A DNA stretch of 64,000 nucleotides from Muribaculaceae bacterium (GTDB lineage: Bacteria > Bacteroidota > Bacteroidia > Bacteroidales > Muribaculaceae): assembly GCA_029060725.1 (NCBI GenBank), contig JAIDTL010000104.1, forward strand, positions 1 to 64,000. Reading direction: 5' to 3'. Positions 25,406 through 43,895 of this stretch are shown piece after piece. The notes beneath the pieces were generated by a model. That model searched no databases and was not told the origin of the DNA. It saw nothing but the letters and a program-made list of their open reading frames with translations. Position numbers and translations under genes: made by a program. Positions within the stretch are counted from its first letter, which is position 1. The number at the start of each line of letters is the position of its first letter.

Positions 25406-25770
25406 GCGTACTCCGCATGCGCCCCTCCAAGTCAAAAAGAGTAGTTAGCACTCTCCGAGTGCGTCAAGCCGAGTCAAGCAACGTAATAAAGCATGCTCCG
25501 CATGCGCCCCACCAAGTCAAAAAGAGTAGCTAGCACTCTCCGAGTGCGCCCCTCCGAGTCAATCAACGTAATAAAGCATGCTCCGCATGCGCCCCACCGA
25601 GTCAAAAAGAGTAGCTAGCACTCTCCGAGTGCGTCCCCCCGCGTCAAACCAACGTAATAAAGCATGCTCCGCATGCGCCCCACCAAGTCAAAAAGAGTTG
25701 TTAGCACTCTCCGAGTGCGTCAAGCCGAGTCAAGCAACGTAATAAAGCATGCTCCGCATGCGTCCCCGCG
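25406..25770. repeat. 85-bp alternating array of TCC-loop hairpins
   Basis: A hairpins GCACTC-TCC-GAGTGC at 25448, 25533, 25618 and 25704 alternate with B hairpins GCATGC-TCC-GCATGC at 25491, 25576, 25662 and 25747; a decayed B copy lies at 25406. The A-to-A and B-to-B periods are 85-86 bp and the A-to-B distance is 43-44 bp. Flanks are conserved: GTAGTTAGC or GTAGCTAGC before A, GTAATAAAGC before B. The 668-bp gap 25358-26025 holds this array, a simple repeat and the promoter of the ATPase gene. Confidence 0.95.
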
Positions 25771-26025: not shown

Positions 26026-27195
26026 ATGAAAGAAAGCATTCGAATTAAAAATATGGGGCCTCTTCGCGACGTATATATAGAAGATATACGTCCTATGACT
26101 ATACTTATAGGCGAATCAGGAAGTGGAAAGAGTCTGCTGATGAAGACTCTCATTCTCTTTCGCTATATATATAAGATGCTCAACATCAGATGGTATCTTA
26201 AAAACTCCAATGTTAACAAGAGTCGTTTTAAATTAACTATAGGGAATCTGCTATCGCCTGAATTAAAGCACTATTTTAAAGATAATAAGCAACTGGAAGT
26301 AGAATACACTGTAGAAATCAATGGTAATAAGCACTCGGTTGCATTTAGAAACGGTTCCATAGATAGGAATACGACAGATAAGGCTATCTCAAATGAAGAT
26401 CTCATATTTCTTAAAGAAAGCTGGATCTCTGAGATGAGAAATATCATTCCTGACTGGGATTCTTTCACTCATAATATTAAGAAAAGAAACCTTAATTATT
26501 ATTTTCAGGAGACCCTTAACGATTTCTTGGATGCATCTGACAAGTTAAAAAACATTCCTCTAAGCTATCTTGGACTATCTCTTGATGTTGAAAAGAAAGG
26601 AGAGGCTAAAAAATACTTCATTAAGCCTATTGATGATTCATATCTTCCAATAGAATGGAAATATGCTTCATCAGGCATCCAAACTTCTTCATCTATCCCC
26701 ACTATTGTAGATTATTTTGCAAATTCATTCTCTTTCAAAGAAGCCATTGGCCGTTCAATAATAAGTTATCTATACGAAACGGATACTCTCAGGTTATATA
26801 AGCCTGAACTCGAACCTATGGATATGAAAAGAATGGTGCATATTCATATTGAAGAACCTGAGTTAAATCTATACCCCACTGCACAATGTCTTCTTATGGA
26901 TAGCATCACAAAGGAAGCATTTATGTCAGTTGCGGCTGACCGAGAACTTCGTTTGATTATTGCAACACATAGCCCATATATCATCAACTACTTAAATGTT
27001 CTTATAAACCGAAAAGGAAGCAACCAAGCTAAAATAGATAAAGCTAATCTTGCAGTATATCGAATATATGACGGCATGCTTCAGAATCTTATTGCGACAG
27101 ACGATGAAGGACGTATATTTGTTGACACTCAAGACCTTACAGAGCAAATGGAAAATATCATGTCTGAGTATGAATTTCTAACTAACCATCAATAA
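26026..27195 (+). CDS. SMC/OLD-like ATPase of a two-gene accessory system
   Basis: 389 residues. Walker A is GESGSGKS (residues 29-36) in the phrase PMTILIGESGSGKSLLM. A middle helical insertion follows (about 45-240). The ABC-type second half has SSGIQTSSS in the signature position, Walker B HIHIEEPELNLYPTAQ, and an H-loop IATHSPYIINYLN. This is the OLD/AAA_15-like arrangement used by the ATPase subunits of many phage-defence systems, but no TOPRIM nuclease domain is attached. The stop codon shares one base with the next start (TAATG), indicating tight coupling. AT-rich codon use suggests transfer. Confidence 0.85.
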   Translation: MKESIRIKNMGPLRDVYIEDIRPMTILIGESGSGKSLLMKTLILFRYIYKMLNIRWYLKNSNVNKSRFKLTIGNLLSPELKHYFKDNKQLEVEYTVEINGNKHSVAFRNGSIDRNTTDKAISNEDLIFLKESWISEMRNIIPDWDSFTHNIKKRNLNYYFQETLNDFLDASDKLKNIPLSYLGLSLDVEKKGEAKKYFIKPIDDSYLPIEWKYASSGIQTSSSIPTIVDYFANSFSFKEAIGRSIISYLYETDTLRLYKPELEPMDMKRMVHIHIEEPELNLYPTAQCLLMDSITKEAFMSVAADRELRLIIATHSPYIINYLNVLINRKGSNQAKIDKANLAVYRIYDGMLQNLIATDDEGRIFVDTQDLTEQMENIMSEYEFLTNHQ

Positions 27196-27824
27196 TGGAC
27201 ACTACTCAATTGAATTTGCTCTGGCGATGCTTTCCAAATGCAACTGATCCAACTGATTTCTCTTTTGAAGCAGTCGGCACATTCAGTTTGACCGATGATA
27301 AATCTTGCTACCAAGACAGGAATTCGAATCGATGTCCATCAGATTGTAGTAGAGAAATAATCATTATCCATTCAAATTCTCCACTGACAATTGTCGCTTT
27401 CGATGAATGGCTCAAAGATTTTCCTATTTCGACATGTGATTATTTGCTATATAATTCAGACACACAGAAAAAAATATTTGCGTTGTGTGAGTTGACATGT
27501 TCCTTACCACATTATGTAGAAGACCGAGTTGATAACGTTGGAAAGAGAGCAAAGGCATATTCTCAGATGATATCTTCATGGAAGCTTATAGCCGAAAGCG
27601 AGAATCCAGTGTTCAAAGCCCAAATCCTAAATTACGTAAGAAAAATCGGAATCTTTGGATGGCGTGATAGAAAATCAGACATCCAAGATGGAGCTATGAA
27701 ATCATTAAGATCATTTGTCAATACTCCCGGAAGCCAAGCAGGCATAAAGACATTCCATAATTATGTCTTTGGCGAAAACTTTGAATTTATCCAAGTAAAA
27801 TATCCCCATACACTACATTTATAG
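27195..27824 (+). CDS. Unknown protein coupled to the OLD-like ATPase
   Basis: 209 residues, no signal peptide or membrane helix. Not recognised. It contains several cysteines in the first half (DKSCYQD, RCPSDCSREI, STCDYLLY, FALCELTCSLPHY). The segment CDYLLYNSDTQKKIFALCEL has an Asp then E-L spacing faintly like a PD-(D/E)XK core, but the lysine is replaced, so no nuclease call is made. Because it starts on the last base of the ATPase gene, it is probably the effector or sensor subunit of the same system. Confidence 0.75.
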   Translation: MDTTQLNLLWRCFPNATDPTDFSFEAVGTFSLTDDKSCYQDRNSNRCPSDCSREIIIIHSNSPLTIVAFDEWLKDFPISTCDYLLYNSDTQKKIFALCELTCSLPHYVEDRVDNVGKRAKAYSQMISSWKLIAESENPVFKAQILNYVRKIGIFGWRDRKSDIQDGAMKSLRSFVNTPGSQAGIKTFHNYVFGENFEFIQVKYPHTLHL

Positions 27825-27859: not shown

Positions 27860-27962
27860 GCATGCTCCGCATGCGCCCCTCCGCGTCAAACCAGCGTAAT
27901 AAAGCATGCTCCGCATGCGCCCCCCCGCGTCAAACCAACGTAATAAAGCATGCTCCGCATGC
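27860..27962. repeat. Three B-type TCC-loop hairpins, 44-bp period
   Basis: GCATGC-TCC-GCATGC at 27860-27874, 27904-27918 and 27948-27962, without A-type units between them. A decayed module with AATGCTCGGAGAGGTT and CAGGTTTTAACCTG follows at 27991-28062. Confidence 0.9.
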
Positions 27963-28097
27963 GCCCCTCCGCGTCAAACAACATAATAAAGAATGCTCGG
28001 AGAGGTTATCCCTGGTTGGTTAGCCTCAGGTTTTAACCTGTAGGAACAAGGAGATGCGCTTTATGATATTAGCATTCCCCTCCCCTCCAAAGCACCA

Positions 28098-28281: not shown

Positions 28282-28312
28282 TTGCACAAAGCAAAAATTT
28301 ATCGTAAATTTG
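28282..28312 (+). promoter_or_regulatory. Promoter of the candidate structured RNA
   Basis: TTG (28282-28284), 20 bp, TAAATTTG (28305-28312). The expected start of transcription is about 28316-28320. Confidence 0.75.
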
Positions 28313-28315
28313 CAG

Positions 28316-28630
28316 TGACCTATCGCCGTGAGACTCCACATGGAGCCGGAACGTGGGAGGTCATTACATAATGAAAAGCGTTACTGCGCTTGATTCTTGG
28401 CTGTTTCTGAAATGTGGCAGTTTCATATTCATCGTCAAGAATGAAGTAACGGTGATGTCTTCGGGGTATGATTATGTACCCAAAGCTTTCGTACCCATAG
28501 GTATGAGTGCTTTGGTGTATCACATATCATACGGCGTAGGCTCTTCGTTACTCGTTCTACGATGAAACGGCGATGCCACATGCCTAGAGACAGCGGGACG
28601 AGTAACAGTACGGATCCTGCGCTTTTTTTG
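28316..28630 (+). ncRNA. Candidate structured noncoding RNA, about 315 nt, family not recognised
   Basis: No convincing reading frame, but promoter and terminator bracket a strongly foldable sequence. Hand-found helices: TGACCT/AGGTCA (28316-28321 with 28358-28363); CGTTACT/AGTAACG (28379-28385 with 28445-28451), extended by ATTCTT/AAGAAT (28393-28398 with 28437-28442). A long hairpin 28466-28532 has GTATGAT/ATCATAC, ATGT/ACAT, CCAAAGC/GCTTTGG and GTACC/GGTAT in order. A perfect nine-pair stem GTTACTCGT/ACGAGTAAC joins 28547-28555 with 28598-28606. It does not show the signatures of tmRNA, RNase P RNA, SRP RNA or a riboswitch class I know. It lies 50 bp before the Hsp70/TerB gene run, so it may be that system's RNA component or its regulatory leader. 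Confidence 0.7.
28592..28629 (+). terminator. Terminator of the candidate structured RNA
   Basis: AGCG and GGA (28592-28598) pair with TCC and CGCT (28615-28623), followed by seven T (28623-28629). The stem has a small bulge. Confidence 0.6.
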
Positions 28631-28656
28631 TTTTACAGATATATAGCCTAATTTGG
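28627..28656 (+). promoter_or_regulatory. Weak candidate promoter of the Hsp70/TerB gene run
   Basis: TTTG (28627-28630), 18 bp, TAATTTGG (28649-28656), an imperfect -7 element. The alternative is readthrough from the RNA promoter at 28282-28312. Confidence 0.35.
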
Positions 28657-28678: not shown

Positions 28679-31600
28679 ATGATTGAGCTTATTACGCAAA
28701 ATCCATTTAGGACTCTAGGGGTTTACGTTAACTCAAATCTTAAGGAACGCCTGTCAAACGTTAATCGATTTAAGGCCTTCAACAAGGTCGGCAAATCGGT
28801 TAAAACTGATGTGGACTTCGATGAAGTCTTGGATGCCAGTCCAGATCGCTCTATAAGTAGCATTGAAAATGCATTGCAAGAATTGACTCTTCCTATTGAT
28901 CAACTCAAGCACGCATTATTTTGGTTTGCATCCAATATTCCAGCAGATGAAATAGCTATAAAAAATATTGCGGATTGCAAATTAGAAAAAGCAAGGACTA
29001 TTGAAAGTAAATTTTCTGTCTGGTCTTCTATTCTTAATTATCATACCATATCGTTGATAGTTGGGAATCTAAAAGGAGCTGTTGCAGCTTTCACTGAATT
29101 AGCATCTTACCACAAACAACAATTATTAATTGGACTTGGACTTAATACTCTTATTATCACCGAGGAAGAAATTGTTGAATTATATTATAATCAGATATCA
29201 AAAATTTTTACCACTAAAGAAATCTTTCGTGCTTTTAAATCTTTACCAGCTGAAAGAAATAAGGTATTTGATATTATAGTAAAAAGAATTAGTAGTGAAT
29301 GCATAGAAAAAATAAACTATCTAATTACTATTGCTAAAGAAACGTCAGAATCAGATTCCAACGCAAACCTCAAGGCCGGTTTTGATTTAAAAACAGCTTC
29401 ATATCCTATTTTAGTTGAACTCAAAGAATTATTAGATGGTAATTCTAACTATAATTTAATAGCAGATAAAGTCGCATTACAAGTTCTCCAGAATAGCATT
29501 TATTATTATAACGCTTCTGAAGAAGAGGAGGCAGCTCGTCATGCCTTTCCATTGATTGAATTTGCGAAAAAAACAGCTAAAGGACAAGTCGCTCAGGAAC
29601 GTTGTAATGACAACTATGAGATTTTACGGAAGGCATATGACCTATTGCCACCTATATCTATTCTATATTATCATCGACTTCTAACAAAAGTAATTAATGA
29701 ATACAATTCTAAGGCATCTACAATTGAAAGCGCTTCAGTATTCATAGACAAGTGCTTTCCCTATTTAATGTCGATAAGATCGTTGTTAGGTCCATCTAAC
29801 GCCTACTATAGGAGGAAATGTACCCAAATCGCAGATTATGCTTTAGAAGACGTAATAACAGACTATAACAAAAAAAGCGAGTCCTTCCATAAGTTATTGG
29901 AAAAAGTTTCAGGTTCTTTACAAAATAGAATAATATCGCAGATTCAAGAAATGATGAAGTCTGCTGTGATTACTATGTATCACATAAAGCACCTTGAATT
30001 AGAATCTAACTTCCGAAAAGAAAGATTTAATAAAAACTACGATATTATAGTAAAGCAAGCCCGCAATGCGCGTACATTAGGTGTTAATAGTGTTTCGGCA
30101 ATTCTCGGTGGAGTAGTGTCTGAGGAGAGCTTCAATACCGACTTAAAGAACTATGAGCCGGATTTAAGAGATGAAGCAGGATACTTCTCATCCATTAAGA
30201 ATCTTCAAGATTGCTACGATTATCGTAGAATTTTTCCAGGCGGTAAATTTACGGCGCAGGTAAATTCCAAAGTTGAAGAATATGAATATCAAGAATGTTC
30301 CTCATTAGAGGATTTGCAGAAATTTTCTATTCGCTATCCTTCGACTAAATTTGATATTCACTCGAAGCGTGAGGAAATTATATTTAAGTCATGTAAAACA
30401 ATCGAAGATTATAAATCATACATATCGAAATATTCCACCTATCGAAAAGAAGCGGAGAAAAGAATTGATGATCTAATCTTTGCAATGTGTCGTGAAAAGG
30501 CTGCATACGCCCATTATCTGGCAACCTATCCTTATGGAGGTCATCGATTAGAAGCTCAACATAAGATAGATGATTTTGACTATCGAGCTTGTAAAACTGC
30601 CGATGATTTTGAGAAGTATCTAAGCATATATCCGCAAGGTTGCCATGTTTCGGATGCTAAAAAACGTATGGATGAAGAAAGGTTTTGGGCATTATGTGTT
30701 AAGAAGGGCTCTTGGAAACTTTATAAGGAATACTTAAACAAGTACCCTTATGGGAAATATAGCTCAGAAGCAAAGAAGAAGTCAAAGAGTCCAAAAGAGA
30801 AATTTAGTGAATGGCGAAGTAATAATGGCTGCTTATTCACAATTATTATTATATTGCTCATTGTTCTCATAATAGCCGGCATAACCAACGGCATTGAGGG
30901 AATAGGTTATGTTTTCGCGGCAATTGGCGCAATTGGTGTTTTTGGATCAATTGGAAAAGGTGATTTAGGATGTGGTTTTAGAATCGCATCGTTAGGAATC
31001 GGTATTGTTGCTGGTGCTATAGGAATTGGTCTTATTATTGCTGGTGAAGAATTGAGTAAATCATCAAAGGCTGAAGATAGCTATAATTCACTAAGCAATC
31101 AATCTTCAATCGCTGATTACAGAAATGTAGTCAGAAATCACTATTCTAAACTCAATGCCACTCAACAAGAGGAACTTTTGAGTCGATATTATAAAATGTC
31201 GCTTGATTCTTGTACGGTAACTATTGATAAGTATTCCACCGGAGGGTATAATTCAAGAATATCAGGTCTGGGATACCTCATTGATTTTATTGAGTATTGT
31301 CCTAACTCAAAGTATAAAGGACAAGCAGAGACTAGAATTTCAGAATTGGTAGATTCGTTATACTATGAGGCTGACCGTAAAAACACCTATACCGGATGGG
31401 AGGAGTATCAGAATGCGGTGCCATCTGACGACTATAAGGATTCAGATGAAAGGAAAGATGCAGTAGATACTCATTGGAACAATGAAAGTAATGCATGGGC
31501 GACCGCTCAGTCGTTAAATAATATTGCTGGATACGAAAGATACTTGTCTCTTTTTCCGAATGGCAAGCACAGAAGTGCAGCAGATAAGAAGGTAATTGAT

Positions 31601-31936
31601 ATGACGGTTACTTCCACTTTTGCGGGGGAACACGGTTCATTACCTGAAATGGATCGCGTAGGATATGGAGGAGGCTCAATATCCTATGTATCTGTTACCA
31701 ATAACACATCATATACCCTTACTCTAATGTATAGTGGAAATGAAAGTAAACGTTTAGTACTCCAACCCAACAGCACTGGCTCAATAAGATTAAAAAATGG
31801 ATCGTATCGAATTGCCGCTTCAGTCAACGCCTCTAATGTTAGCAGATATGCCGGAACTGAATCACTAAATGGAGGTTCTTACGAAGTTGAATATTATATC
31901 TCCAATACTACAGCACCTTCTTATAGACATTATTAA
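28679..31936 (+). CDS. Large membrane protein with J-like N-terminal domain and YL-YP repeat units (system gene 1)
   Basis: 1085 residues, family not named with certainty. Residues 1-110 start MIELITQNPFRTLGVYVNSN; the N-P-F/Y-R-x-L-G-V phrase resembles helix I of J-domains, though no HPD tripeptide is seen. A long helical region follows (to about 530). Next come repeats of about 35 residues (about 530-710) with the pattern Y-x2-YL-x2-YP-x-G (for example FEKYLSIYPQGCHVSDAKKR). Two or three membrane helices lie at about 715-800 (CLFTIIIILLIVLIIAGI). Another YL-x-LFP-x-G repeat and a beta-rich C-terminal domain (about 985-1085) complete it. First gene of the run and the paralogue of the next gene in its N-terminal domain. 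Confidence 0.8.
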   Translation: MIELITQNPFRTLGVYVNSNLKERLSNVNRFKAFNKVGKSVKTDVDFDEVLDASPDRSISSIENALQELTLPIDQLKHALFWFASNIPADEIAIKNIADCKLEKARTIESKFSVWSSILNYHTISLIVGNLKGAVAAFTELASYHKQQLLIGLGLNTLIITEEEIVELYYNQISKIFTTKEIFRAFKSLPAERNKVFDIIVKRISSECIEKINYLITIAKETSESDSNANLKAGFDLKTASYPILVELKELLDGNSNYNLIADKVALQVLQNSIYYYNASEEEEAARHAFPLIEFAKKTAKGQVAQERCNDNYEILRKAYDLLPPISILYYHRLLTKVINEYNSKASTIESASVFIDKCFPYLMSIRSLLGPSNAYYRRKCTQIADYALEDVITDYNKKSESFHKLLEKVSGSLQNRIISQIQEMMKSAVITMYHIKHLELESNFRKERFNKNYDIIVKQARNARTLGVNSVSAILGGVVSEESFNTDLKNYEPDLRDEAGYFSSIKNLQDCYDYRRIFPGGKFTAQVNSKVEEYEYQECSSLEDLQKFSIRYPSTKFDIHSKREEIIFKSCKTIEDYKSYISKYSTYRKEAEKRIDDLIFAMCREKAAYAHYLATYPYGGHRLEAQHKIDDFDYRACKTADDFEKYLSIYPQGCHVSDAKKRMDEERFWALCVKKGSWKLYKEYLNKYPYGKYSSEAKKKSKSPKEKFSEWRSNNGCLFTIIIILLIVLIIAGITNGIEGIGYVFAAIGAIGVFGSIGKGDLGCGFRIASLGIGIVAGAIGIGLIIAGEELSKSSKAEDSYNSLSNQSSIADYRNVVRNHYSKLNATQQEELLSRYYKMSLDSCTVTIDKYSTGGYNSRISGLGYLIDFIEYCPNSKYKGQAETRISELVDSLYYEADRKNTYTGWEEYQNAVPSDDYKDSDERKDAVDTHWNNESNAWATAQSLNNIAGYERYLSLFPNGKHRSAADKKVIDMTVTSTFAGEHGSLPEMDRVGYGGGSISYVSVTNNTSYTLTLMYSGNESKRLVLQPNSTGSIRLKNGSYRIAASVNASNVSRYAGTESLNGGSYEVEYYISNTTAPSYRHY

Positions 31937-31938
31937 AC

Positions 31939-33615
31939 ATGATCACCAATCTATTATCACATAATCCATATAGAATCTTAGGTGTGTATAGTAACTCGCC
32001 TAAAAAAGATGTGCTTTCTAATCTGAACAAGATGAAGGCATTTCTTAAAGTTAGTAAAACTGTTTCATTCCCACTGGATCTACCACAGTTATTGCCTTCA
32101 ATAGAACGAGATGAAGCAATAGTGTCTTCTGCACAAACTTCTATTGAGTTACCAATGGATCAGATTAGACATACGCTTTTCTGGTTTATGAAAACAACTC
32201 AGCTTGATGATATTGCATTGAACCATCTGTTATCTGGCAACATGGCTCAGGCAAAAGAAATATGGAATAAAAAGGAAACAGTATCTTCTCTTCTTAATCT
32301 AATGGCTTGCGCAGTTATAGAAGGAGATTTGCATACGTTGGCTATTAAAGCAGACATTTTATTCCAGAAATACTCTAGAGATTTTTGTCTCGCCGTCAAT
32401 GAGACAATCAAGATTACTCCTACGGAACTAACAGAATTGTACATCGATTTACTCAAAAAAGATGGAAGTTATGATATAGCAAAGATGATGCAAATATCTG
32501 GTACTTCAAACGAATGGAGAAAAACTATCGGCGGAGTTCTTGTAAAGCCGATTATCGATGAAATAACGTTAGCAATTGCAGAAGCAAAAAGTGCAAAGGG
32601 AGCTTCCGCCAATTATCATGCAGGTGAAAAGCTGATGAACACCACCAAAAGACTTCTATCTAAACTTAGACGTCTTCTAGGTATAGCTGATATGCAATAT
32701 AAGATGATTGCTGATAAGTTGGCGACAACTATTCTGCAATGTGGAATTAATTATTTTAATGACATAGAGGAAGATGATGCCGTAGAGAAGGCAATGAAGC
32801 TTCAAAATTATGCCCTTTCAATTGCAGAAGGACAAATGGCAAAGGATCGTTGCAAGGAAAATGTTGATATTCTCAGAAAGATAGAACCAGAATTTGCTAT
32901 TCGTAAAGAAATGGCTTCAATAGGAAAGTCCTTGGAAAGATTTAATAGAATCGCCTCCAATGATCCTTTGTCTGTATTATCACATACATATGGATTATCA
33001 TCACCATTTAGTCAACAAACAAGCCGATATTCCGAATCAGATATTATTGATCTACTGAACGATACAAAGCCAGAACTCCAGAAAATTAAAAATAAATTAG
33101 GAAGTTCCAATGAAACTTATTTAAAAATTAGTTCAGTAATTGCTTCTGCTGCAATTAATGCTTTGGTTGATATTGTTAATAAAGCTCAAAAATCAGGAGA
33201 GTTCGTTCATGTTGTTCTCATTCGCCCTCTAATAGATAGTGCAGTAAACACCATGAGCATGATTGGTTCTCTAGATATGACGCCACAATGCCGAACGTAT
33301 TACAATAATAATAAAAATACATTGGACAGTATTAATCGGCAATTACAACCTAGACCTGCTCCATCTTCTGGTGGTTGCTATATTGCAACAATGGCCTATG
33401 GAGACTATGATCATCCTCAAGTGATGGTTCTGAGACAATTCAGAGATTCGTATCTATCTAATAGAGGCTGGGGACGGAAGTTTATTAACTTCTATTATGC
33501 AAACTCGCCTCATTGGGTGGAGGTGTTGAAAAGTCATAAGCATATCAACGCCCTTATAAGGAAAGTCCTTGATTCATTTGTATATCTTTGGAAGAAAACA
33601 TCGCACTATGAATAA
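31939..33615 (+). CDS. J-like N-terminal domain protein with CFI-box-like C-terminus (system gene 2)
   Basis: 558 residues. The first 350 residues align by eye with system gene 1: MITNLLSHNPYRILGVYSNS, then LPMDQIRHTLFWF matching LPIDQLKHALFWF. The C-terminus carries GGCYIATMAYGDYDHPQVMV followed by LRQFRDSYL, matching the CFI-box-type C-terminal domain found on many bacterial proteins of unknown role. It starts three bases after the stop of gene 1 and overlaps the next gene by eight, so it belongs to one operon. A divergent J-protein partner for the Hsp70 encoded downstream is the inference. Confidence 0.8.
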   Translation: MITNLLSHNPYRILGVYSNSPKKDVLSNLNKMKAFLKVSKTVSFPLDLPQLLPSIERDEAIVSSAQTSIELPMDQIRHTLFWFMKTTQLDDIALNHLLSGNMAQAKEIWNKKETVSSLLNLMACAVIEGDLHTLAIKADILFQKYSRDFCLAVNETIKITPTELTELYIDLLKKDGSYDIAKMMQISGTSNEWRKTIGGVLVKPIIDEITLAIAEAKSAKGASANYHAGEKLMNTTKRLLSKLRRLLGIADMQYKMIADKLATTILQCGINYFNDIEEDDAVEKAMKLQNYALSIAEGQMAKDRCKENVDILRKIEPEFAIRKEMASIGKSLERFNRIASNDPLSVLSHTYGLSSPFSQQTSRYSESDIIDLLNDTKPELQKIKNKLGSSNETYLKISSVIASAAINALVDIVNKAQKSGEFVHVVLIRPLIDSAVNTMSMIGSLDMTPQCRTYYNNNKNTLDSINRQLQPRPAPSSGGCYIATMAYGDYDHPQVMVLRQFRDSYLSNRGWGRKFINFYYANSPHWVEVLKSHKHINALIRKVLDSFVYLWKKTSHYE

Positions 33616-34528
33616 ATTTATTGTATCACTCTTTCTTCTCGCTGGACTGACCTGCCATGCTGAAGCCGACAACCCGGAAATACAAAGAGTAAACGAAAAG
33701 GTCGTTAGTTTGACAGAAAGAGTAGAATACCTTTCTAATGAAAACCAGTCATTGAAAGGGAATGTCTCAAAACTCATGAATGAAGTGGCTACCCTTCAAT
33801 CTCAACTAAGGTCAGTCGATGCGAAAAGTGATTCAATCGACAATGTCCTTATGAGCGGAGTTTCTTCAAATACCCAGCTCGCCAACAACAACCATGCGGT
33901 GGCAACTGAGAAAATACAGGTAGTTGAGACTGCATCCCAATCTAACATCCATCAGCTCACAGTCTGGGGTATTTGGGCTATTGTTGCATTGCTGATTGTA
34001 GCAATAGTGATTTACATTGTCTTGCACCGTGGTATTTCTAAGGGAACAGATGCAATTTCCTCTATACGCGCTGCACAGAGCAATCTTGAAGAAGAGTCTG
34101 TAAAACTTGATACCAAGCTTGTCGAACTCCTTGATAAACAATTGTCGATTGAGAAGAATCAGGCAAAAGCAGATACAAGTGTTGCTCAACAAGTTGCGGT
34201 CCCTGACCATTCACTTGCATTGAAAGTTGCAGACGAAATCACTCGAATTGAGAAGAATCTCTCTCGAATGGATACTTCTGTTAAGGGATATAAGCCGCTT
34301 GTAAAGGCTATCGACCGCATTAAGGACAATTTCAAGGCCAACGGCTATGAAATTGTTACTTACCTCGGTCAGGCTTATAATGAGGGAATGAGAATCAATC
34401 CAGAATTTGTGATTGATGAAACCCTGCCGGAAGGAACTCGCACTATCACATCTGTTTCAAAGCCACAAGTACATTTCAAAGGTGAACTTATCCAGAAAGC
34501 ATCAGTAACCGTCTCACAAAACATATAA
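33608..34528 (+). CDS. Membrane coiled-coil protein with signal sequence (system gene 3)
   Basis: 306 residues from the ATG at 33608; an upstream in-frame ATG at 33569 is less likely because the signal peptide MNKFIVSLFLLAGLTCHAEA begins at 33608. Residues about 25-100 form heptad-like coiled coil (VNEKVVSLTERVEYLSNENQ). One transmembrane helix lies at about 118-143 (WGIWAIVALLIVAIVIYIVL), and a second coiled coil and a soluble domain follow. Topology suggests a periplasmic sensor arm linked to a cytosolic part. No family recognised. Confidence 0.78.
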   Translation: MNKFIVSLFLLAGLTCHAEADNPEIQRVNEKVVSLTERVEYLSNENQSLKGNVSKLMNEVATLQSQLRSVDAKSDSIDNVLMSGVSSNTQLANNNHAVATEKIQVVETASQSNIHQLTVWGIWAIVALLIVAIVIYIVLHRGISKGTDAISSIRAAQSNLEEESVKLDTKLVELLDKQLSIEKNQAKADTSVAQQVAVPDHSLALKVADEITRIEKNLSRMDTSVKGYKPLVKAIDRIKDNFKANGYEIVTYLGQAYNEGMRINPEFVIDETLPEGTRTITSVSKPQVHFKGELIQKASVTVSQNI

Positions 34529-34536
34529 ACCACGTT

Positions 34537-37020
34537 ATGGCACAACTAAAAGTCAACTACGGCATCGACTTAGGTACCACCAACTCGGCAATAGCGAGGA
34601 TGGAGGCAGGTAAGCCGACCGTGAAAAAGATCGAAGTGACAGATGACACAATGCCGTCATGTGTTTACTTCCAGAAAAACAAGAGCTGTCATGTAGGCAA
34701 AAAAGCTTATAGCAGCATGAAGAGCGACAAACGTCGCGCTATGAAAAAAATGGATGCTGAAGCCTCCAATACCTATCTTGAGTTCAAACGAACAATGGGT
34801 ACGGATAAAAGGTATATAAGCGCAAACATGGATGGCAGAGGGTATTCTTCTGAAGAACTCTCGGCAGAAGTGCTTAAAGCATTAAAGTCATTCATCACCG
34901 ATGAGGACTTTAAGTCTGTTGTCATCACAGTACCGGCAAAATTCAATGCAAATCAAAAGACTGCGACCATCAAAGCCGCTAAACTTGCCGGCTTTAACCA
35001 TGTAGAGCTTCTGCAGGAACCTATTGCGGCAGCAATGGCCTATGGTTTGACCTCCGCCCAGAAAGATGGTTACTGGCTCGTGTTTGACTTCGGAGGAGGA
35101 ACTTTCGATGCTGCTCTCATAAAGGTTGAGGATGGTATTATTCAGGTGTTTGATACCGAAGGGGATAATTATCTCGGCGGTAAGAACCTTGATTATGCTA
35201 TAGTTGACAATATCCTGATGCCGTATCTTCAGGAGAACTACTCTATAGATGGCTTCCTTGAAGATACAACTAAGAAGGATATCCTGCGTGAGGCTATGAA
35301 AACCTATGCGGAGGAAATTAAGAACGAACTTTCTTTCAAAGACAGTTATAGCATTTACATCGATCCGGGTGACTTAGGAGAAGATGAAGATGGTGAGGAA
35401 TTTGAAATAGACCTTACTATCACAAAAGATGAGGTTTATAATGTGATCCGTCCTCTCTTCCAAAAGGCTGTTGACATCTGCAAAGACCTATTGAAACGAA
35501 ATAATCTGACGTCTCAGCAACTTGGCAAACTCATACTTGTAGGTGGTCCGACACACTCTCCTCTCGTTAGACAGATGCTGAAGGAGCAGGTATCTTCTAA
35601 TGTTGATAGCAGTATAAATCCGATGACAGCTGTTGCTGAAGGTGCCGCTCTCTATGCTTCAACAATTGATAATGAAATAAAAGAAGAAGACCTGCAATCT
35701 CAGGATGTAGTGCTTGAAATCAATTTCGACTCGATGACTGTTGACACTGATATTTGGGTGCCCGTTTCACTCAAATCGGGTGCCGATAGTGTGATGGTCC
35801 AGTTTGTCCGTAGTGACAACGCTTGGGATAGTGGCAAGACAGAGGTTGACCACAATGGTAATGTAGTCGAACTTAACCTTGTAGAAGGTCAACCCAACTC
35901 TTTCAGAGTGGAATGCTATGACCATCAGGGCAGTCGTCTGAATTGCTTCCCAAATGAGATTACAATCATACAGGGATCGAAAGTTGGTAATGCAACTTTA
36001 CCCTACGACATTTCTCTCGCCATATATGATGAGAAGAAAGAGCGTGACATAATCAAGCCCATTACAGGACTGGAAAGGAACAAAACTGTACCTGCTACAG
36101 GTATCGCAAATGGTCTGCATACGAATGTTCAGGTTCGTGCTGGTGTAGATTCAGACGTACTGCGTATTCCTTTGTATCAGGCAGACCAAGGGGGTGCAGG
36201 TAAAACCGCTCTGTTCTATGAGTTTGTTGGTGAGGTTGAAATAAATGGTGACGACGTTGATGTCACCATTCCCAAGAATGCGAATGTTGATGTTACCGTT
36301 AAGGTTGACCGCAACGAACAGATGACAGTTGAGGCATACTTCCCCGACCAAGACGTGACAGTTGAGAAGACAATTGACACATCTAAGGAACAATCTCTTG
36401 AAGATGCGAGAGAATTTGCTGATCGCGAGTTACCCAAGGCAAAAAGAGCCGTAAGGAATCTAAGTAATGAAGGTCATGATGTGGCAGACCTCGAAAGACA
36501 GCTTGACTCGGTAGAACAAGAACACGCCAACAGTTCGGAATCAAAGATGGTTATGCAACACCTCAAAGAGGTACTCCGAAAGATAGAGGACTTCGAGGAA
36601 GGAACCGAATGGGGCCGTGTTGAGACTGAATTACGCGATGAGTTCGACCGTCTTGAAAAGGCTAATGCCGACCTTGGCAACAACAAGACCAATCAGGCTG
36701 TAGAAGCACTTCGGGCTCAAATTGATGAAGTCATTCGTAAACAGGATGTGAAGATGGCTCGTGAGCTAAAAGAAATAGTAAACCACTTATTCTTCCAGTT
36801 GACCATGGTGTACCAGTGTAGATACCTAATCGAGGATATGAACCGTGACTTTAACACCATACAATGGAAAGATAGGAATCGTGCCCGTACACTCATCAAT
36901 CAAGGTATGGCTGAAATCAACAATCAACCAACCAGAGAGAAACTTCAACCCATAGCAGTCGCTCTGCTGGAACTTCTCCCCGAAGGAGAGAAAGCTCGTC
37001 GTGGAAGCGGCTTATCATAA
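34537..37020 (+). CDS. Hsp70 (DnaK-like) chaperone with long C-terminal extension (system gene 4)
   Basis: 827 residues, versus about 640 for DnaK. The nucleotide-binding domain (about 1-385) shows phosphate-1 motif YGIDLGTTNSAIARM, phosphate-2 motif WLVFDFGGGTFDAALI and adenosine motif LILVGGPTHSPLVRQML. A beta-rich substrate-binding-like domain (about 390-610) and a long helical lid region (about 615-827) follow. It differs from housekeeping DnaK in lacking a GGMP-type tail and in its context. It sits between membrane and kinase genes, so a dedicated client or signalling complex is likely. Chaperone class is firm; its client is unknown. Confidence 0.93.
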   Translation: MAQLKVNYGIDLGTTNSAIARMEAGKPTVKKIEVTDDTMPSCVYFQKNKSCHVGKKAYSSMKSDKRRAMKKMDAEASNTYLEFKRTMGTDKRYISANMDGRGYSSEELSAEVLKALKSFITDEDFKSVVITVPAKFNANQKTATIKAAKLAGFNHVELLQEPIAAAMAYGLTSAQKDGYWLVFDFGGGTFDAALIKVEDGIIQVFDTEGDNYLGGKNLDYAIVDNILMPYLQENYSIDGFLEDTTKKDILREAMKTYAEEIKNELSFKDSYSIYIDPGDLGEDEDGEEFEIDLTITKDEVYNVIRPLFQKAVDICKDLLKRNNLTSQQLGKLILVGGPTHSPLVRQMLKEQVSSNVDSSINPMTAVAEGAALYASTIDNEIKEEDLQSQDVVLEINFDSMTVDTDIWVPVSLKSGADSVMVQFVRSDNAWDSGKTEVDHNGNVVELNLVEGQPNSFRVECYDHQGSRLNCFPNEITIIQGSKVGNATLPYDISLAIYDEKKERDIIKPITGLERNKTVPATGIANGLHTNVQVRAGVDSDVLRIPLYQADQGGAGKTALFYEFVGEVEINGDDVDVTIPKNANVDVTVKVDRNEQMTVEAYFPDQDVTVEKTIDTSKEQSLEDAREFADRELPKAKRAVRNLSNEGHDVADLERQLDSVEQEHANSSESKMVMQHLKEVLRKIEDFEEGTEWGRVETELRDEFDRLEKANADLGNNKTNQAVEALRAQIDEVIRKQDVKMARELKEIVNHLFFQLTMVYQCRYLIEDMNRDFNTIQWKDRNRARTLINQGMAEINNQPTREKLQPIAVALLELLPEGEKARRGSGLS

Positions 37021-37027
37021 ATAATTG

Positions 37028-37059
37028 GTAGCGCAAGTTGATAACGTCACTTGCGCTAC
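37028..37059 (+). promoter_or_regulatory. Intercistronic hairpin after the Hsp70 gene
   Basis: GTAGCGCAAGT (37028-37038) pairs perfectly with ACTTGCGCTAC (37049-37059) with a 10-nt loop and no T-run. It may protect the upstream message end or partly attenuate downstream genes. Confidence 0.6.
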
Positions 37060-37075
37060 TTAATAAAAATATAAC

Positions 37076-38050
37076 ATGGCAGAAACAACCCAACATAACA
37101 GCGCAGATGAGGCTATTCTTATGGAGGCACAACGCGATGCGTTAGGACATTTCCAACTTAAACTGGGAATGCTAAACCCCGATATGCCAATCGAGGAGCA
37201 GCTTCAGAGTCTATCAAAGTATCATGATATACCTAATATTGATTCAATCAAGAATGGTGAGACACAACTTAAAGAAGGGTATATCAATGATTTCTTTTTG
37301 TCTCAAGTTAAAGATTTTTTAAAGAATTACCCAAAAGCCTATGACCTTTTGGGGCAACCGTCGGATAATATTTTGGCCGACTACGCAGCATTAGGTATTA
37401 AGTATCATCTTCTTAGCTCAGGAGAAAAAGATAAGAGTTTTAGAGAAAAATCCATACGAGCCTACTACGAATATTTGCCAAAATATGAGCAATATCTCTT
37501 GGACTATATTCGGAACAACGGGAATTATCAGTTAACTCAATCTACTCCAGAGGGTATTACCGCTTATATTGACCTTAATAAGCAACATGAGGAGATACTT
37601 AGTGGATTTGATGGACCATTGTCTTCAGGCAAGCTTATAAATGCTGTAATGGTCAACCTATTTCCTAAGATTAAAAATCTTAGAGAGACTGGTATTAGTG
37701 AGTATTACTATAATAGAGCCGTTTCCGATATGATTGTCGGTAAATTCAAGGCCTATGGGTTTCTTCTTGTTCATATGGCAAAAGGAGGAGCGATGGGTCT
37801 TCAAACCGTAATAGAACCGGCTTCTGAACCTCTTGGCATGAATGGCATTTACAATAAGCTATTAGAGGTGGAAGGCGCTCTTGATTTGGATGAAGATCAG
37901 AGAAAAGACGTTGCCGACATTAAAGCAGGCATTGAAGCTCTTAAAAAAAATAATATTGGTCAAAGCGGTGGCTCCGGTTGCTTTGGAACATTATTGTTAC
38001 TCGCAACTGCTGCTACAAGGTTGGTAGCTTCCTTGGTTATAATCCTCTAA
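37076..38050 (+). CDS. Tail-anchored protein of unknown function (system gene 5)
   Basis: 324 residues. Mostly helical and soluble, with no recognised domain. Notable segments are YPKAYDLLGQPSDNILADYA and YYNRAVSDMIVGKFKAYGFL. The last 25 residues are a single hydrophobic helix preceded by GQSGGSGCFGTLLLL, which suggests a C-terminal membrane anchor. Placed between the Hsp70 and kinase/AAA genes with short gaps (55 and 10 bp), so it is part of the same operon. Confidence 0.78.
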   Translation: MAETTQHNSADEAILMEAQRDALGHFQLKLGMLNPDMPIEEQLQSLSKYHDIPNIDSIKNGETQLKEGYINDFFLSQVKDFLKNYPKAYDLLGQPSDNILADYAALGIKYHLLSSGEKDKSFREKSIRAYYEYLPKYEQYLLDYIRNNGNYQLTQSTPEGITAYIDLNKQHEEILSGFDGPLSSGKLINAVMVNLFPKIKNLRETGISEYYYNRAVSDMIVGKFKAYGFLLVHMAKGGAMGLQTVIEPASEPLGMNGIYNKLLEVEGALDLDEDQRKDVADIKAGIEALKKNNIGQSGGSGCFGTLLLLATAATRLVASLVIIL

Positions 38051-38060
38051 TCAGAAATTT

Positions 38061-39836
38061 ATGCTGTTCAAACGAAATGACAAAATAGGGGCATATACCG
38101 TTATCTCACCTATTAAGCGAGGAACGTATGCTGAGACTTACCGCATAAAAGATGCTCAGGGGATTAAACGCTTCCTGAAGCTTATCTGTACGCCACAACT
38201 CAAGCACTGGCAAACAGATAAAACAGGTGCTATAATTGAGATGAAAGTAGCCAAAGAACTACACAATCACAATCTATGTGACAATATAGACTCCGGCATC
38301 ATGGTCATTGGTGGTCAGAAATATTCCTATCTTGTCAATGAGTTTGTTAATAGTGAGACATTAGCCGAGTCTATTACCCGTGGCAGGGAATATAGTATCT
38401 ACGAAATCAAGCAGATAGTCACTGCATTGTTGTCAGCTCTTAAATATCTGCATGGTCTTCCTCGTCCTGTAATTCATAATGAAGTCACAATCCAGAATAT
38501 CCTTTTGGATCTAAAGACAGATGACCTAAAGGATGTCAGGCTGATTGATTTCGGGTATGCTCGTTATCTTGATATGCCTAACAGTAAACCCGGACTTGAT
38601 GATTTGAATGTATTTTATCTTGCTCCTGAACGATTTGCCGGCGTTTCATGTGTACAAAGTGATTTGTATTCTGTAGGTGTCTGCCTATATACTCTCATCT
38701 ATAAGAGGTTACCATGGTTCTATGACCTTGGGCATTGTTCGGACAGCGAAAAAATAGAAAAAGTATCAAGACGTAGAGAACATCCTCTTGACATCCCTGA
38801 TATTGATATGTTTGAACTTGACGACCAACTTATCAATATTATCAAAAAGGCACTTCTCCCAGATGTTAACGACCGTTTTCAGTCGGCTGAGGAATTTATT
38901 GCAGCGATTAACGGTTCTCTAAAAGTTGATGATCCGGACTTATCTCGCCAGATGAAAGTGGGTGGCAATGAAAGGAAACAATCAAATGCCTGTCATAGAC
39001 CCGCAGATGGAGAAGGCTTTTCCGCGATTGCCGGAATGAAGAAATTGAAAGATTTAGTTAAAACAGAAGTAATAGAAGCCATCAACAATCGAGAAGAGTA
39101 TGAGCGATATGGTGTATCTATTCCTAATGGAATCTTATTGTATGGTCCTCCTGGATGCGGAAAAACCTTCTTTGCTAAACAGCTTGCCGCCGAAGTTGGA
39201 TTTAACTTTATGGAAAAGAAGCCCAGTGACCTACAAAGCCGTTGGGTAAATGCGACGCAAGAAAATATCGCAGCAATGTTTAAAGAGGCTGAAGAAAATG
39301 CACCAACAATTATCTTCATTGATGAAATGAATGAGTTGACACCTAATCGTGACAGTGGTAATGTTCATCAAATGCACCTCAGCGCAGTTAATGAATTGCT
39401 TGCAAACATGGATCGTCTTGGAGAAAAGGGCATTTTCGTTATTGGAGCCACTAATTATCCACACCTCATGGATCCTGCTATTTTGCGTTCCGGGCGTCTC
39501 GACAAAAAGTTCTATGTTGCACCACCTGATTATGAAGCTCGTAAGGCTATGTTTGAGATGCTTCTAAAAAAGCGACCATACGATTTCGGGTTGAATTATG
39601 ACAAACTTGCCAGAATGACCGAAAACTATGTTTTTTCAGACATTACGTTAATTATCAATGATGCTTCCCGTAAAGCTCTTTTAGCCAAGAGTAAGATTAC
39701 TATGTTAATCCTTGAAGAAACAATCAAAGAAACACAACCATCCCTTAGACCTGACGATATAGAAAAATATAATGAAATAAAAGCCATTATGGACGGCGAG
39801 AAAAATAATAAAACACGTCCACGTGTTGGATTCTAA
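38061..39836 (+). CDS. Protein-kinase/AAA+ ATPase fusion (system gene 6)
   Basis: 591 residues. Residues about 8-285 are an eukaryotic-like protein kinase: G-loop GTYAET (21-26), Lys at 40 in RFLKLI, DFG at 163-165, and LAPERFAG. The catalytic loop reads HNEVTIQN (139-146), with Glu in place of the catalytic Asp of HRD, so activity may be weak or lost. Residues about 320-560 are an AAA+ ATPase of the FtsH/CDC48 type: Walker A GPPGCGKT (362-369), Walker B IIFIDEMNEL, sensor 1 VIGATNYP, and the arginine-finger region LRSGRLDKKF. No protease domain. Possibly the motor or signalling hub of the Hsp70/TerB system. Confidence 0.92.
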   Translation: MLFKRNDKIGAYTVISPIKRGTYAETYRIKDAQGIKRFLKLICTPQLKHWQTDKTGAIIEMKVAKELHNHNLCDNIDSGIMVIGGQKYSYLVNEFVNSETLAESITRGREYSIYEIKQIVTALLSALKYLHGLPRPVIHNEVTIQNILLDLKTDDLKDVRLIDFGYARYLDMPNSKPGLDDLNVFYLAPERFAGVSCVQSDLYSVGVCLYTLIYKRLPWFYDLGHCSDSEKIEKVSRRREHPLDIPDIDMFELDDQLINIIKKALLPDVNDRFQSAEEFIAAINGSLKVDDPDLSRQMKVGGNERKQSNACHRPADGEGFSAIAGMKKLKDLVKTEVIEAINNREEYERYGVSIPNGILLYGPPGCGKTFFAKQLAAEVGFNFMEKKPSDLQSRWVNATQENIAAMFKEAEENAPTIIFIDEMNELTPNRDSGNVHQMHLSAVNELLANMDRLGEKGIFVIGATNYPHLMDPAILRSGRLDKKFYVAPPDYEARKAMFEMLLKKRPYDFGLNYDKLARMTENYVFSDITLIINDASRKALLAKSKITMLILEETIKETQPSLRPDDIEKYNEIKAIMDGEKNNKTRPRVGF

Positions 39837-39849
39837 AAACTATAAAAAT

Positions 39850-40329
39850 ATGAATATCTCAGAAATATATCTACTTACAGCATTTGTCTGTTCTGCTTGT
39901 GACGGAGATATTGCTCCCGAAGAAGTTGCTCTTGTTAAAAAGTGGAGCGAAAATAATAATCAATTTGGCGATATTGATGTTGAGTCTAAGTTAAATGATT
40001 ACGTGAGATCTATAAACAAAAATGGCAGCAGATTTTTACGTGATTATTTGCAACGTCTTAAAAGCAATGAGTTTTCAAAGGAAGAACAGATAGAGATTAT
40101 CAGAATAGCAATTGAAATGATAGAGGCTGATGGACAGATTCTTTACTCCGAAGTAAAGTTCTTCAAAAAACTCCGTCCTTGTCTAAGTTTAACAGATGAG
40201 GAAATACTCGAAGTAATGCCTGATAAGGAAGATTTCCTCCTTCCTGATATCAAAACTACAGAATTCTTTTTTGACGACGATATAAAATTTGAAGAAATTA
40301 ACTTTTCCAATATACTTAAAAACGAATAA
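39850..40329 (+). CDS. TerB-like protein (system gene 7)
   Basis: 159 residues from the ATG at 39850; a longer frame starting at 39823 would overlap the previous gene by 14 bases and has no extra family support. Two TerB-type acidic motifs are visible, CSACDGDIAPEEVALV and MIEADGQILYSEVKFF, each with D-G-x-I/L-x3-E. TerB-like domains are helical, often metal-binding, and occur in tellurite-resistance and phage-defence complexes linked to membranes. Last gene of the run. Confidence 0.85.
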   Translation: MNISEIYLLTAFVCSACDGDIAPEEVALVKKWSENNNQFGDIDVESKLNDYVRSINKNGSRFLRDYLQRLKSNEFSKEEQIEIIRIAIEMIEADGQILYSEVKFFKKLRPCLSLTDEEILEVMPDKEDFLLPDIKTTEFFFDDDIKFEEINFSNILKNE

Positions 40330-42737: not shown

Positions 42738-42805
42738 TTATGAAAATACCAGGATTATCATTCTCTTGGAAAAGAGCACTCGGAGTGACCCAAGCCAAAC
42801 AACAG
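42736..42805. repeat. 70-bp direct repeat, left copy
   Basis: Matches 43712-43781 with about five differences. Both copies encode the start of the same small protein, 976 bp apart. Confidence 0.9.
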
Positions 42806-42838
42806 AGTCCTCCTTTCCCCCGCAGTCAAGCAACGTAA
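42740..42838 (+). pseudogene. Truncated copy of the MKIPGLSFSWKRALG small protein
   Basis: The first 22 codons match the intact gene at 43716-43877. Then the sequence diverges (SPPFPRSQAT) and stops inside a TCC-loop hairpin repeat. Probably a broken duplicate. Confidence 0.75.
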
Positions 42839-42842
42839 TAAA

Positions 42843-42857
42843 GCATGCTCCGCATGC
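42843..42857. repeat. Single B-type TCC-loop hairpin
   Basis: GCATGC-TCC-GCATGC with the flank GCAACGTAATAAA, at the break point of the truncated small gene. Confidence 0.9.
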
Positions 42858-43013
42858 GCCCCACAGAGTCAATCATTCTGACCAAACCACTGACTCCAAC
42901 AATATAGAATGTCTAAATGAAAGAGCCATGTCGTTAACCACCCTCCTACCCCCTACGATATCAACTGAATTACTTTTTATAAATAGATTATTAGATCAAA
43001 TCTTGTTCAATGA

Positions 43014-43267: not shown

Positions 43268-43306
43268 TTCTGATACTTATACACCAAAGTTAAGCAACGT
43301 AATAAA

Positions 43307-43362
43307 GCATGCTCCGCATGCGCCCCACCGAGTCCCAGAGTAGTTAGCACTCTCCGAGTGCG
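43307..43362. repeat. B and A TCC-loop hairpins
   Basis: GCATGC-TCC-GCATGC (43307-43321) and GCACTC-TCC-GAGTGC (43348-43362), 41 bp apart, followed by the same GCGCGTCC...TTGGG tail seen after the array at 25770. Confidence 0.9.
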
Positions 43363-43491
43363 TCCCCGCGCGTCCTTTGGGAATCATAGAATGCGTAGCG
43401 TAGCGAGCGAACCCTTTGCGCCTTTACGTGAGATAAACATTTACATAATAATAGATTGCAAAATAAAAAAAAAACTTTAGCATATACAATT

Positions 43492-43719
43492 ATGAGACAA
43501 GAAAGCATAACAGTATTGAGAGGTGAGAAAGTGGCAAAAATAATTGAAAATATTAGTGACCGCTACTCAGTTTCTCTTGATAAAGCATCGGATATATACT
43601 ATAATTCTGATACTTCAATTCTTATTGAAGAAGGCGTGGCAGACTTGCATTGCCGTAGTGAAAAATATCTTGCACAATGTGTTTGGGACGAATATACAGA
43701 AAACAAATTTCAATTATGA
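43492..43719 (+). CDS. Small protein of unknown function, possible antitoxin-like
   Basis: 75 residues starting MRQESITVLRGEKVAKIIEN; an upstream in-frame ATG at 43456 lies in a repeat-derived A-rich stretch and is less likely. Helical with an acidic second half (SILIEEGVADLHCRSEKYLA). It overlaps the following small gene by four bases. Similar small proteins occur beside toxin-like genes in Bacteroidales, but I cannot name the family with certainty. Confidence 0.65.
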   Translation: MRQESITVLRGEKVAKIIENISDRYSVSLDKASDIYYNSDTSILIEEGVADLHCRSEKYLAQCVWDEYTENKFQL

Positions 43720-43781
43720 AAATACCCGGATTGTCATTCTCTTGGAAAAGAGCACTCGGAATAACCCAAGCCAAACAACAG
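43712..43781. repeat. 70-bp direct repeat, right copy
   Basis: Partner of 42736-42805. Confidence 0.9.
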
Positions 43782-43877
43782 TTTTCCCGAAAGACCGGCA
43801 TCCCGACTTCACGCGCAGGGCTGGAACGGAAAATCGGCGGTGCAATCATAAATGCTGTTCTCGGCAAGAAGAAATAA
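43716..43877 (+). CDS. Small basic protein, intact copy of the MKIPGLSFSWKRALG family
   Basis: 53 residues, strongly basic: MKIPGLSFSWKRALGITQAK, SRKTGIPTSRAGLERKIGGA, ending AVLGKKK. The family occurs as small orphan genes in Bacteroidales; function unknown. Overlaps the preceding gene by four bases and ends 18 bp before the ADP-ribosylglycohydrolase start, so the three may form one unit. Confidence 0.7.
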   Translation: MKIPGLSFSWKRALGITQAKQQFSRKTGIPTSRAGLERKIGGAIINAVLGKKK

Positions 43878-43895
43878 TATGTGAGTAAGATTAAA

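Follow-up and report, generated by a model that had tools for sequence, protein, structure and literature searches.

The DNA analysed here, hereafter the window, is the first 64,000 nucleotides (nt) of contig JAIDTL010000104.1 of a Muribaculaceae bacterium, and the subject of this report is a gene cassette within it that is preceded by a structured leader RNA (Table 1). Seven open reading frames (ORFs), all of them open, lie on the same strand between 28679 and 40329, just where an earlier note on this sequence had placed a seven-gene system. On the whole, the locus consists of a five-gene core, which encodes a helical protein with an NP(F/Y)R motif, a coiled-coil membrane protein, an Hsp70, a fusion of a protein kinase with an AAA+ ATPase, and a TerB-like protein, together with two optional genes. 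By a simple hydropathy scan, hydrophobic segments are present in gene 1 (717-735 and 763-781), in gene 3 (120-138) and at the C-terminus of gene 5 (306-324), and none are present in genes 2, 4, 6 and 7. The start of gene 3 is more likely the signal-like one at 33611 (MNKFIVSLF...) than the mechanical TTG start at 33569.

Table 1. Positions of the leader and of the seven genes of the cassette in the window
Feature	Position	Strand	Description
Bacteroidota-type promoter box TAAATTTG	28305..28312	+	pattern hit at the start of the leader RNA
Structured leader RNA	28313..28634	+	ends in a terminator-like hairpin and T run, about 50 nt upstream of gene 1
Gene 1	28679..31936	+	accessory; N-terminal NPFRTLGV domain, paralogue of gene 2, two hydrophobic segments
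Gene 2 (core)	31939..33615	+	NPYRILGV domain at the N-terminus, helical body, CFI-box at the C-terminus
Gene 3 (core)	33611..34528	+	signal-like start, then two coiled coils with one hydrophobic segment between them
Gene 4 (core)	34537..37020	+	Hsp70 nucleotide-binding domain, divergent C-terminal half
Gene 5	37076..38050	+	variable-slot protein with GCFG membrane tail
Gene 6 (core)	38061..39836	+	fusion of protein kinase and classic AAA+ ATPase
Gene 7 (core)	39823..40329	+	TerB-like protein with YSE(V/I)KFF motif

The clustering of the core exceeds chance, as shown by its synteny throughout the phylum. Scanning the GTDB representative genomes with an alignment of the TerB protein gave 114 relatives, the best 80 of which were kept, so this locus set is anchored on TerB. 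With the core written as J-C-H-K-T (gene 2-like, gene 3-like, Hsp70, kinase-AAA and TerB), all five genes are present in 59 of the 80 loci; exactly this order is found in 52 and the order J-J-C-H-K-T in 4. Among the 21 other loci, 14 have their first core ORF no more than 650 nt from the locus edge and may be cut, and TerB stands without other core genes in 4 of the 80, some of them cut at the edge. Bacteroidota names are borne by 75 of the 80; the remaining five are contigs of metagenome-assembled genomes (MAGs) labelled otherwise (L068, L078, L089, L113 and L115), and the genome of L078 (G174) is placed by another tool in the window's own family despite its label. In addition, the kinase-AAA protein was searched for in 395 evenly drawn genomes of the phylum, with few candidates scored per genome, which makes the counts lower bounds: a match at E 1e-60 occurs in at least 18 and a full-length one in at least 6, the window's own included. 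Around these hits the core order is exact in L211, L212 and L213 (L212 coincides with L129 of the TerB-anchored set), L214 holds four of the five core genes in order on a short contig, L215 reads H-K-T-J on a contig of 6.8 kb, and in the fetched locus of L216, which matches in the AAA part only, no system is found. Within the family, 22 of 247 genomes, the source genome included, have a homologue of gene 2 at E up to 1e-3, and hit regions were fetched from 20. The strong hits show, by local comparison, the order gene 2, gene 3, Hsp70, a variable slot, kinase-AAA and TerB; L045 has no TerB call, and in L047 the order is interrupted. The weak hits (L048-L055) hold only parts of the cassette or other contexts. 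A five-gene version is also present on plasmid pHALHY02 of Haliscomenobacter hydrossis, between SIR2/WD40 genes and brxL/pglZ of a BREX locus. The gene order, on whose loss outside the strain the earlier note had staked its proposal, is thus conserved far beyond it, and the co-conserved, membrane-linked unit that the note described holds up. As for all seven genes forming one unit, this is true of the five core genes, while gene 1 is found in few loci (related proteins occur in L036, L037, L045 and L047) and the slot of gene 5 is variable. As side observations, the four other core genes are present in L067 and L073, with kinase-AAA undetected between Hsp70 and TerB, and L058 has a TerB relative at 68% identity, yet among its called ORFs there are no core genes, TerB included.

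The domain assignments of Hsp70 and kinase-AAA agree with what was first read from the sequence. Gene 4 matches Pfam HSP70 (PF00012, E 3.8e-72) up to residue 392 of 827, and its profile matches to solved Hsp70 chains end at 371-411 among the matches listed; about 435 residues thus lie beyond the Pfam match, instead of the 190-residue extension proposed before. The columns LGTTNS, D-GGGTFD and GG-T, which hold the phosphate and adenosine motifs of actin-like ATPases, are invariant in 58 sequences. Gene 6 matches AAA (E 4.3e-36) and Pkinase (E 5e-27). Among 74 kinase-AAA proteins, the Walker A lysine, the Walker B glutamate, the arginine finger R479 and an aromatic pore residue (Y, W or F) at position 395 are each present in all 74; the AAA+ motor looks active. 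In the kinase half, the VAIK-type Lys40 is present in 74 and the DFG aspartate in 73, and a C-terminal GF is invariant in 35 aligned sequences. For gene 7, the Pfam TerB match (PF05099) exists but is weak (E 1.3e-4), its 22.7 bits falling below the cut-off of 24.4; the H. hydrossis homologue is annotated as TerB family.

Genes 1 and 2 are related at their N-termini, where residues 3-315 of gene 2 align at 34% identity, and NP(F/Y)R occurs within the first 120 residues in 67 of 71 gene 2-like proteins. Gene 2 is closed by a CFI-box-CTERM domain (NCBIfam NF041770, E 2.9e-24), which the earlier note did not name; a literature search for this domain returned nothing, preprints and subscription journals lying outside its scope. 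The CFI-box is found in 19 of 67 gene 2-like proteins, and hydrophobic segments, one or more and often C-terminal, in 46; some proteins have both features and some neither. The CFI-box may replace a membrane anchor in these proteins. One or two hydrophobic segments are also present in 65 of 67 homologues of the coiled-coil protein (gene 3). The AlphaFold2 model of gene 2 has a mean confidence (pLDDT) of 88.1 and is all helical, with N-terminal helices at 10-13, 22-37 and 59-68; its fold comparison is filled by residues 200-475, leaving the N-terminal domain uncovered. The NP(F/Y)R protein also occurs with Hsp70 outside the full cassette. In L049 and L051 it adjoins, with a short relative of gene 3 and an Hsp70, the genes clpP-clpX-recQ (neighbours were domain-scanned in L049 only), and in L054 it is found with an Hsp70 and an AAA protein that has a weak kinase match. 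These three loci support a link of the NP(F/Y)R protein to Hsp70.

Unlike the core, the position between Hsp70 and kinase-AAA is variable. Overall, 46 of 83 loci have non-core ORFs within the cassette, 60 in all and mostly at this place. They include a homologue of gene 5 in L057, a family of 196-217 residues in L056, L059 and L078, proteins of 307 residues, secreted-looking proteins of 181 residues with an SH3_3 match, lipoprotein-like proteins and a KilA-N protein, while a DUF6602 protein sits between the first two cassette genes. Gene 5 itself, when searched for in 101 genomes, was found in the source genome only, a homologue in L037 surfacing later. It can thus hardly be the fixed member for which it was first taken, as other proteins fill the slot elsewhere. 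Without their tails, gene 5/L057 and L056/L059/L078 are two families with no mutual match up to E 10, and a hydrophobic GCFG tail is common to both. By eye, the L057 tail is close to that of L056 and the L059 tail resembles that of gene 5, so it looks as if tail subtypes were exchanged between slot bodies.

The structured RNA upstream of gene 1 (28305-28634, promoter box included) had been missed in the earlier note. Its stretch 28313-28645 folds with a z-score of -8.4. Counting the window, 23 of 61 testable system loci carry the leader ahead of their first gene, 22 of them further non-redundant ones; this count drops the near-duplicates L043, L056, L057, L062-L066 and L078, five loci with an upstream stretch of less than 450 nt, and loci that do not have both gene 2 and Hsp70. 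The leader-bearing loci are from the window's family or have names of Bacteroidales type, except the Clostridia-labelled MAG contigs L068 and L115. In an alignment of 34 leaders (23 system loci and 11 other contexts), a structure of 43 pairs has 96.8% of its 1449 cells paired, and two-sided changes occur at 22 pairs and in 174 cells, compared with 12.2 and 48.7 after shuffling, neither figure being reached in any of 500 shuffles; the structure was picked on the same alignment, which favours these figures, and related sequences inflate the shuffle test. Sliding the partners cuts the pairing to 44.0% or less. A long-range helix (143-146/423-426) is 100% paired with three to five pair types per position. 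A second pairing (191-196/378-383), 98.0% paired, competes with the 5' arm of the 3' hairpin, after which a T run follows, and would act like an antiterminator. RNAalifold alone gives two local hairpins with 34 pairs, 14 of them with two-sided changes, and does not recover the long-range helix. The covariation shows that the leader is more than chance. No match to it is found among the 4227 models of Rfam up to E 1, and that it is a structured RNA without Rfam match is well supported. As for its start, TANNTTTG lies within the first 32 nt of 26 of the 34 leaders, and the box TAAATTTG presumably serves as promoter; the 8-mer occurs 59 times in the window against 49.6 expected, so chance matches are frequent. 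A covariance model of the 3' hairpin, used at E 1e-6 with strict filters that make copy counts lower bounds, finds it in at least 29 of 295 genomes of the order, with up to ten copies per genome and ten in the source genome.

Besides the cassette, the leader precedes a variety of other operons. In 31 other contexts, a count that drops L202 as near-twin of L201, the next sense ORF of at least 80 amino acids (aa) begins 2-207 nt downstream in 30 and 602 nt downstream in one. PADLOC was run on 20 proteins from 8 of these contexts, 4 of the proteins not being leader-downstream; the contexts were picked by eye for a restriction or conflict look, with L048 added, and so give no rate of defence genes. 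Among them, type III restriction is found after the leader as a methyltransferase in L204 and as methyltransferase and restriction enzyme in L231, with a 1017-residue ORF of L204 being 72% identical to the L231 enzyme. L228 has a type II methyltransferase as second gene and L223 a PLD-Snf2 protein (C3a139, E 2.2e-71). In L203 (2184-11230) the leader heads an operon with weak matches to ZorA (E 9.3e-8) and ZorB (E 3.9e-8), which also holds large proteins without PADLOC match. Another leader copy, the second in the source genome, heads the operon L189:14507-19331, with a 389-residue protein, a mad8-like protein (a weak match, E 3.4e-6) and a GHKL ATPase assigned by Pfam; this is possibly an uncharacterised conflict operon. 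The contexts L222 and L048 have no PADLOC match. Other leader-headed operons resemble secreted or surface proteins: at least two LRR_5-like motifs in a protein are found in 4 of 31 contexts against 0 of 140 control proteins, the units being operons in the one case and single proteins in the other.

With regard to known systems, parts of the cassette resemble several of them. The AAA+ half of gene 6 is hit by models of IetA (PADLOC E 4.9e-38; NF042959 E 1.7e-33), but only about residues 335-579 of this kinase fusion are covered. IetS is a protease, and among the seven proteins Pfam (for gene 6, the best 25 of the 35 families listed) gives no match to a protease domain, nor to a McrB-type GTPase, McrC, or a TerC, TerD or TerY-type protein. 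The kinase half of gene 6 matches PD-T4-6 (E 5.3e-28) and mad6 of MADS (E 2.8e-32) in PADLOC; however, the matched stretch is without the AAA+ part, and these matches include nothing that corresponds to the other six genes. TerB/Ter stress modules likewise have a TerB-like protein within a membrane-linked operon, but here TerB is below its cut-off and the Ter proteins just named are missing from the Pfam matches. Msp1/ATAD1, FtsH and Cdc48 extract membrane proteins. Gene 6 shares with them a classic AAA+ motor with an aromatic pore loop and possible membrane clients, and differs in its kinase fusion, its Hsp70 partner and the lack of a Pfam protease match. The CoCoNuT systems, in the excerpts of their description (PMC11090510), have Hsp70-like proteins and coiled coils, often alongside kinase-bearing TerY-P triads, and this type IV restriction sometimes forms one superoperon with BREX. 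They are built, according to the same excerpts, on McrB-type GTPase and McrC homologues, whereas the AAA+ part of gene 6 is of the Cdc48/FtsH type and no McrB-type GTPase is matched by PADLOC in the seven proteins (gene 6: best 25 of 40 listed). The leader, for its part, is like the FopS small RNAs of Bacteroides thetaiotaomicron in being a multi-copy RNA with promoter and terminator; in the portions of that work at hand (PMC11697453), FopS are about 65-70 nt, a single-stranded 5' part or seed followed by a terminator, while the leader is about 325 nt, has several helices and stands directly before genes, the sequences having been compared via Rfam only. No description of the gene set or of the leader RNA was found in the literature, within the scope given above for the CFI-box.

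Taken together, these features suggest that the cassette encodes a membrane-tethered protein-remodelling machine, a reading that, with all its steps, we consider plausible though it falls a little short of probable. The coiled-coil protein would act as sensor or scaffold at the inner membrane, to which the NP(F/Y)R protein would recruit Hsp70, and the kinase domain would gate the AAA+ motor. The slot protein is often a tail-anchored or secreted protein or a lipoprotein; Hsp70 and AAA+ may keep it inactive or may extract it, and the trigger could be a disturbed cell envelope, for instance by phage. In many Bacteroidales the terminator-like hairpin of the leader competes with the alternative pairing, so that attenuation would probably set the expression of the operon. 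Roles of this machine in conflict and in stress are about equally likely. A conflict role is suggested by the patchy spread, the changing slot, the plasmid copy near BREX, the upstream AriA/PDC-M29A-like ATPase and a leader common to restriction operons. In the boldest form, the cassette would be a new type of conflict system, with a swappable membrane effector guarded by a membrane-anchored Hsp70 together with a kinase-gated AAA+, and a new Bacteroidales class of cis-acting leader RNA, with a long-range helix and a choice between terminator and antiterminator, would co-regulate a defence-and-surface regulon consisting of the cassette and of the restriction, helicase, Zorya-like and surface-protein operons; guarding and regulon taken jointly, this is speculative and, in our judgement, doubtful. 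If true, a chaperone-motor machine would be a new principle of effector control in bacterial immunity or envelope stress, and one RNA leader would tie restriction systems to surface proteins in gut Bacteroidales.

Direct evidence for a defence role of the cassette is thin, and a number of results weigh against the conflict system or against parts of the machine. In the flanks, defence proteins are about 9 (best 25 of 42 families listed) in the test set and 3-4 in the control set, of 140 each, at E 1e-25 and read by eye from the family lists, without a significance figure. The location in defence islands, for which the earlier note had proposed a search, is thus weakly supported, by the BREX/SIR2 neighbours on pHALHY02, while the flank difference is small. 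No relative of the TerB protein was found in the viral contigs of IMG/VR. No listed model of PADLOC 2023 spans both halves of gene 6, only the halves matched by IetA, mad6 and PD-T4-6, and none is listed for the remaining core proteins as a set. The leader is undetected in 38 of the 61 testable loci, and operons without sign of defence are headed by it as well; as surface-protein operons stand behind it, it is not defence-specific. A slot gene is absent from L035, L039 and L046, and the three-gene set of L049 and L051 is possibly a minimal, housekeeping-looking relative of the system. As for the proposed chaperone recruitment, we take the NP(F/Y)RxLGV start to be like helix I of a J-domain, but HPD is present in the first 150 ORF residues of 0 of 71 NP(F/Y)R proteins, and a profile search of PDB sequences with gene 2 gives four chains up to E 10, no J protein among them, which leaves the former 'J-like' label unproven. 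Finally, the catalytic-loop position of the kinase is occupied by Glu in 44 of the 74 proteins, by Asp in 29 and by Ala in 1; this majority of Glu makes kinase activity uncertain, and the domain may be weak, unusual or regulatory.

Among the alternatives, the cassette may serve accessory quality control of the envelope, refolding or extracting damaged membrane and exported proteins with the slot proteins as adaptors and with no role in conflict. An Hsp70 and an AAA+ motor with membrane partners would suit such work, as would the relative beside clpP-clpX-recQ and slot proteins that by eye often look like lipoproteins or secreted proteins. We nevertheless think it possible rather than likely, since the system is patchy, as the counts of full-length kinase-AAA in the phylum and of gene 2 homologues in the family show, the slot changes between loci, and the pHALHY02 copy lies in a BREX/SIR2 neighbourhood. 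Alternatively, the machine may be an anti-phage system that releases a toxic slot effector on infection. The variable slot with its DUF6602 and KilA-N proteins, the pHALHY02 neighbours, the AriA/PDC-M29A-like ATPase upstream in the window and the leader shared with restriction operons are all consistent with this, but the three loci without slot gene, the small flank difference and slot proteins without known toxic activity argue against it, so that it is possible without being likely. With respect to the leader, it would have to be asked whether it is a mere dispersed mobile repeat near genes, a hairpin like a miniature inverted-repeat transposable element (MITE). Its copy number fits, the hairpin matches its own minus strand, and L079 (13768-14036) carries a second, partial copy on the minus strand, behind which the first sense ORF of at least 60 aa starts only 717 nt further on. 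However, nearly all the other copies stand closely before a sense ORF, most leaders have the promoter box, and two-sided changes keep the structure with up to five pair types per position, unlike decaying repeats; we regard this explanation as improbable. That the operon consists of unrelated neighbours brought together by chance, as might be suggested by L050 and L055, where the NP(F/Y)R protein occurs with no other core gene, and by the few solitary TerB genes, is practically negligible in view of the complete cores in most TerB-anchored loci from many Bacteroidota taxa and on a plasmid.

The cassette lies among several other features in the window. Upstream, a two-gene unit at 26026-27824 encodes an AAA_15/AAA_21 ATPase, which in PADLOC matches PDC-M29A (E 6.8e-26) and also gives AriA-like matches, and a 209-residue protein; G014 (L175) has this unit too, with identities of 94% and 90%. 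An intergenic repeat with GCATGCTCCGCATGCGCCCC, tandem and dispersed (25411-25767, 27860-27998, 42816-42872 and 43289-43367), flanks the system on both sides and is also found near contig ends of relatives. Two near-identical starts of short ORFs lie about 1 kb apart (about 42740-42800, and 43718-43877), the second being longer by eye. In addition, ADP-ribosylglycohydrolase genes flank the system at 16387-17895 and 43881-44693, and a protein with AAA-ATPase_like and PDDEXK_9 matches is encoded at 44791-46350, to which the first gene after a leader copy in the source genome (L222) is 42% identical.

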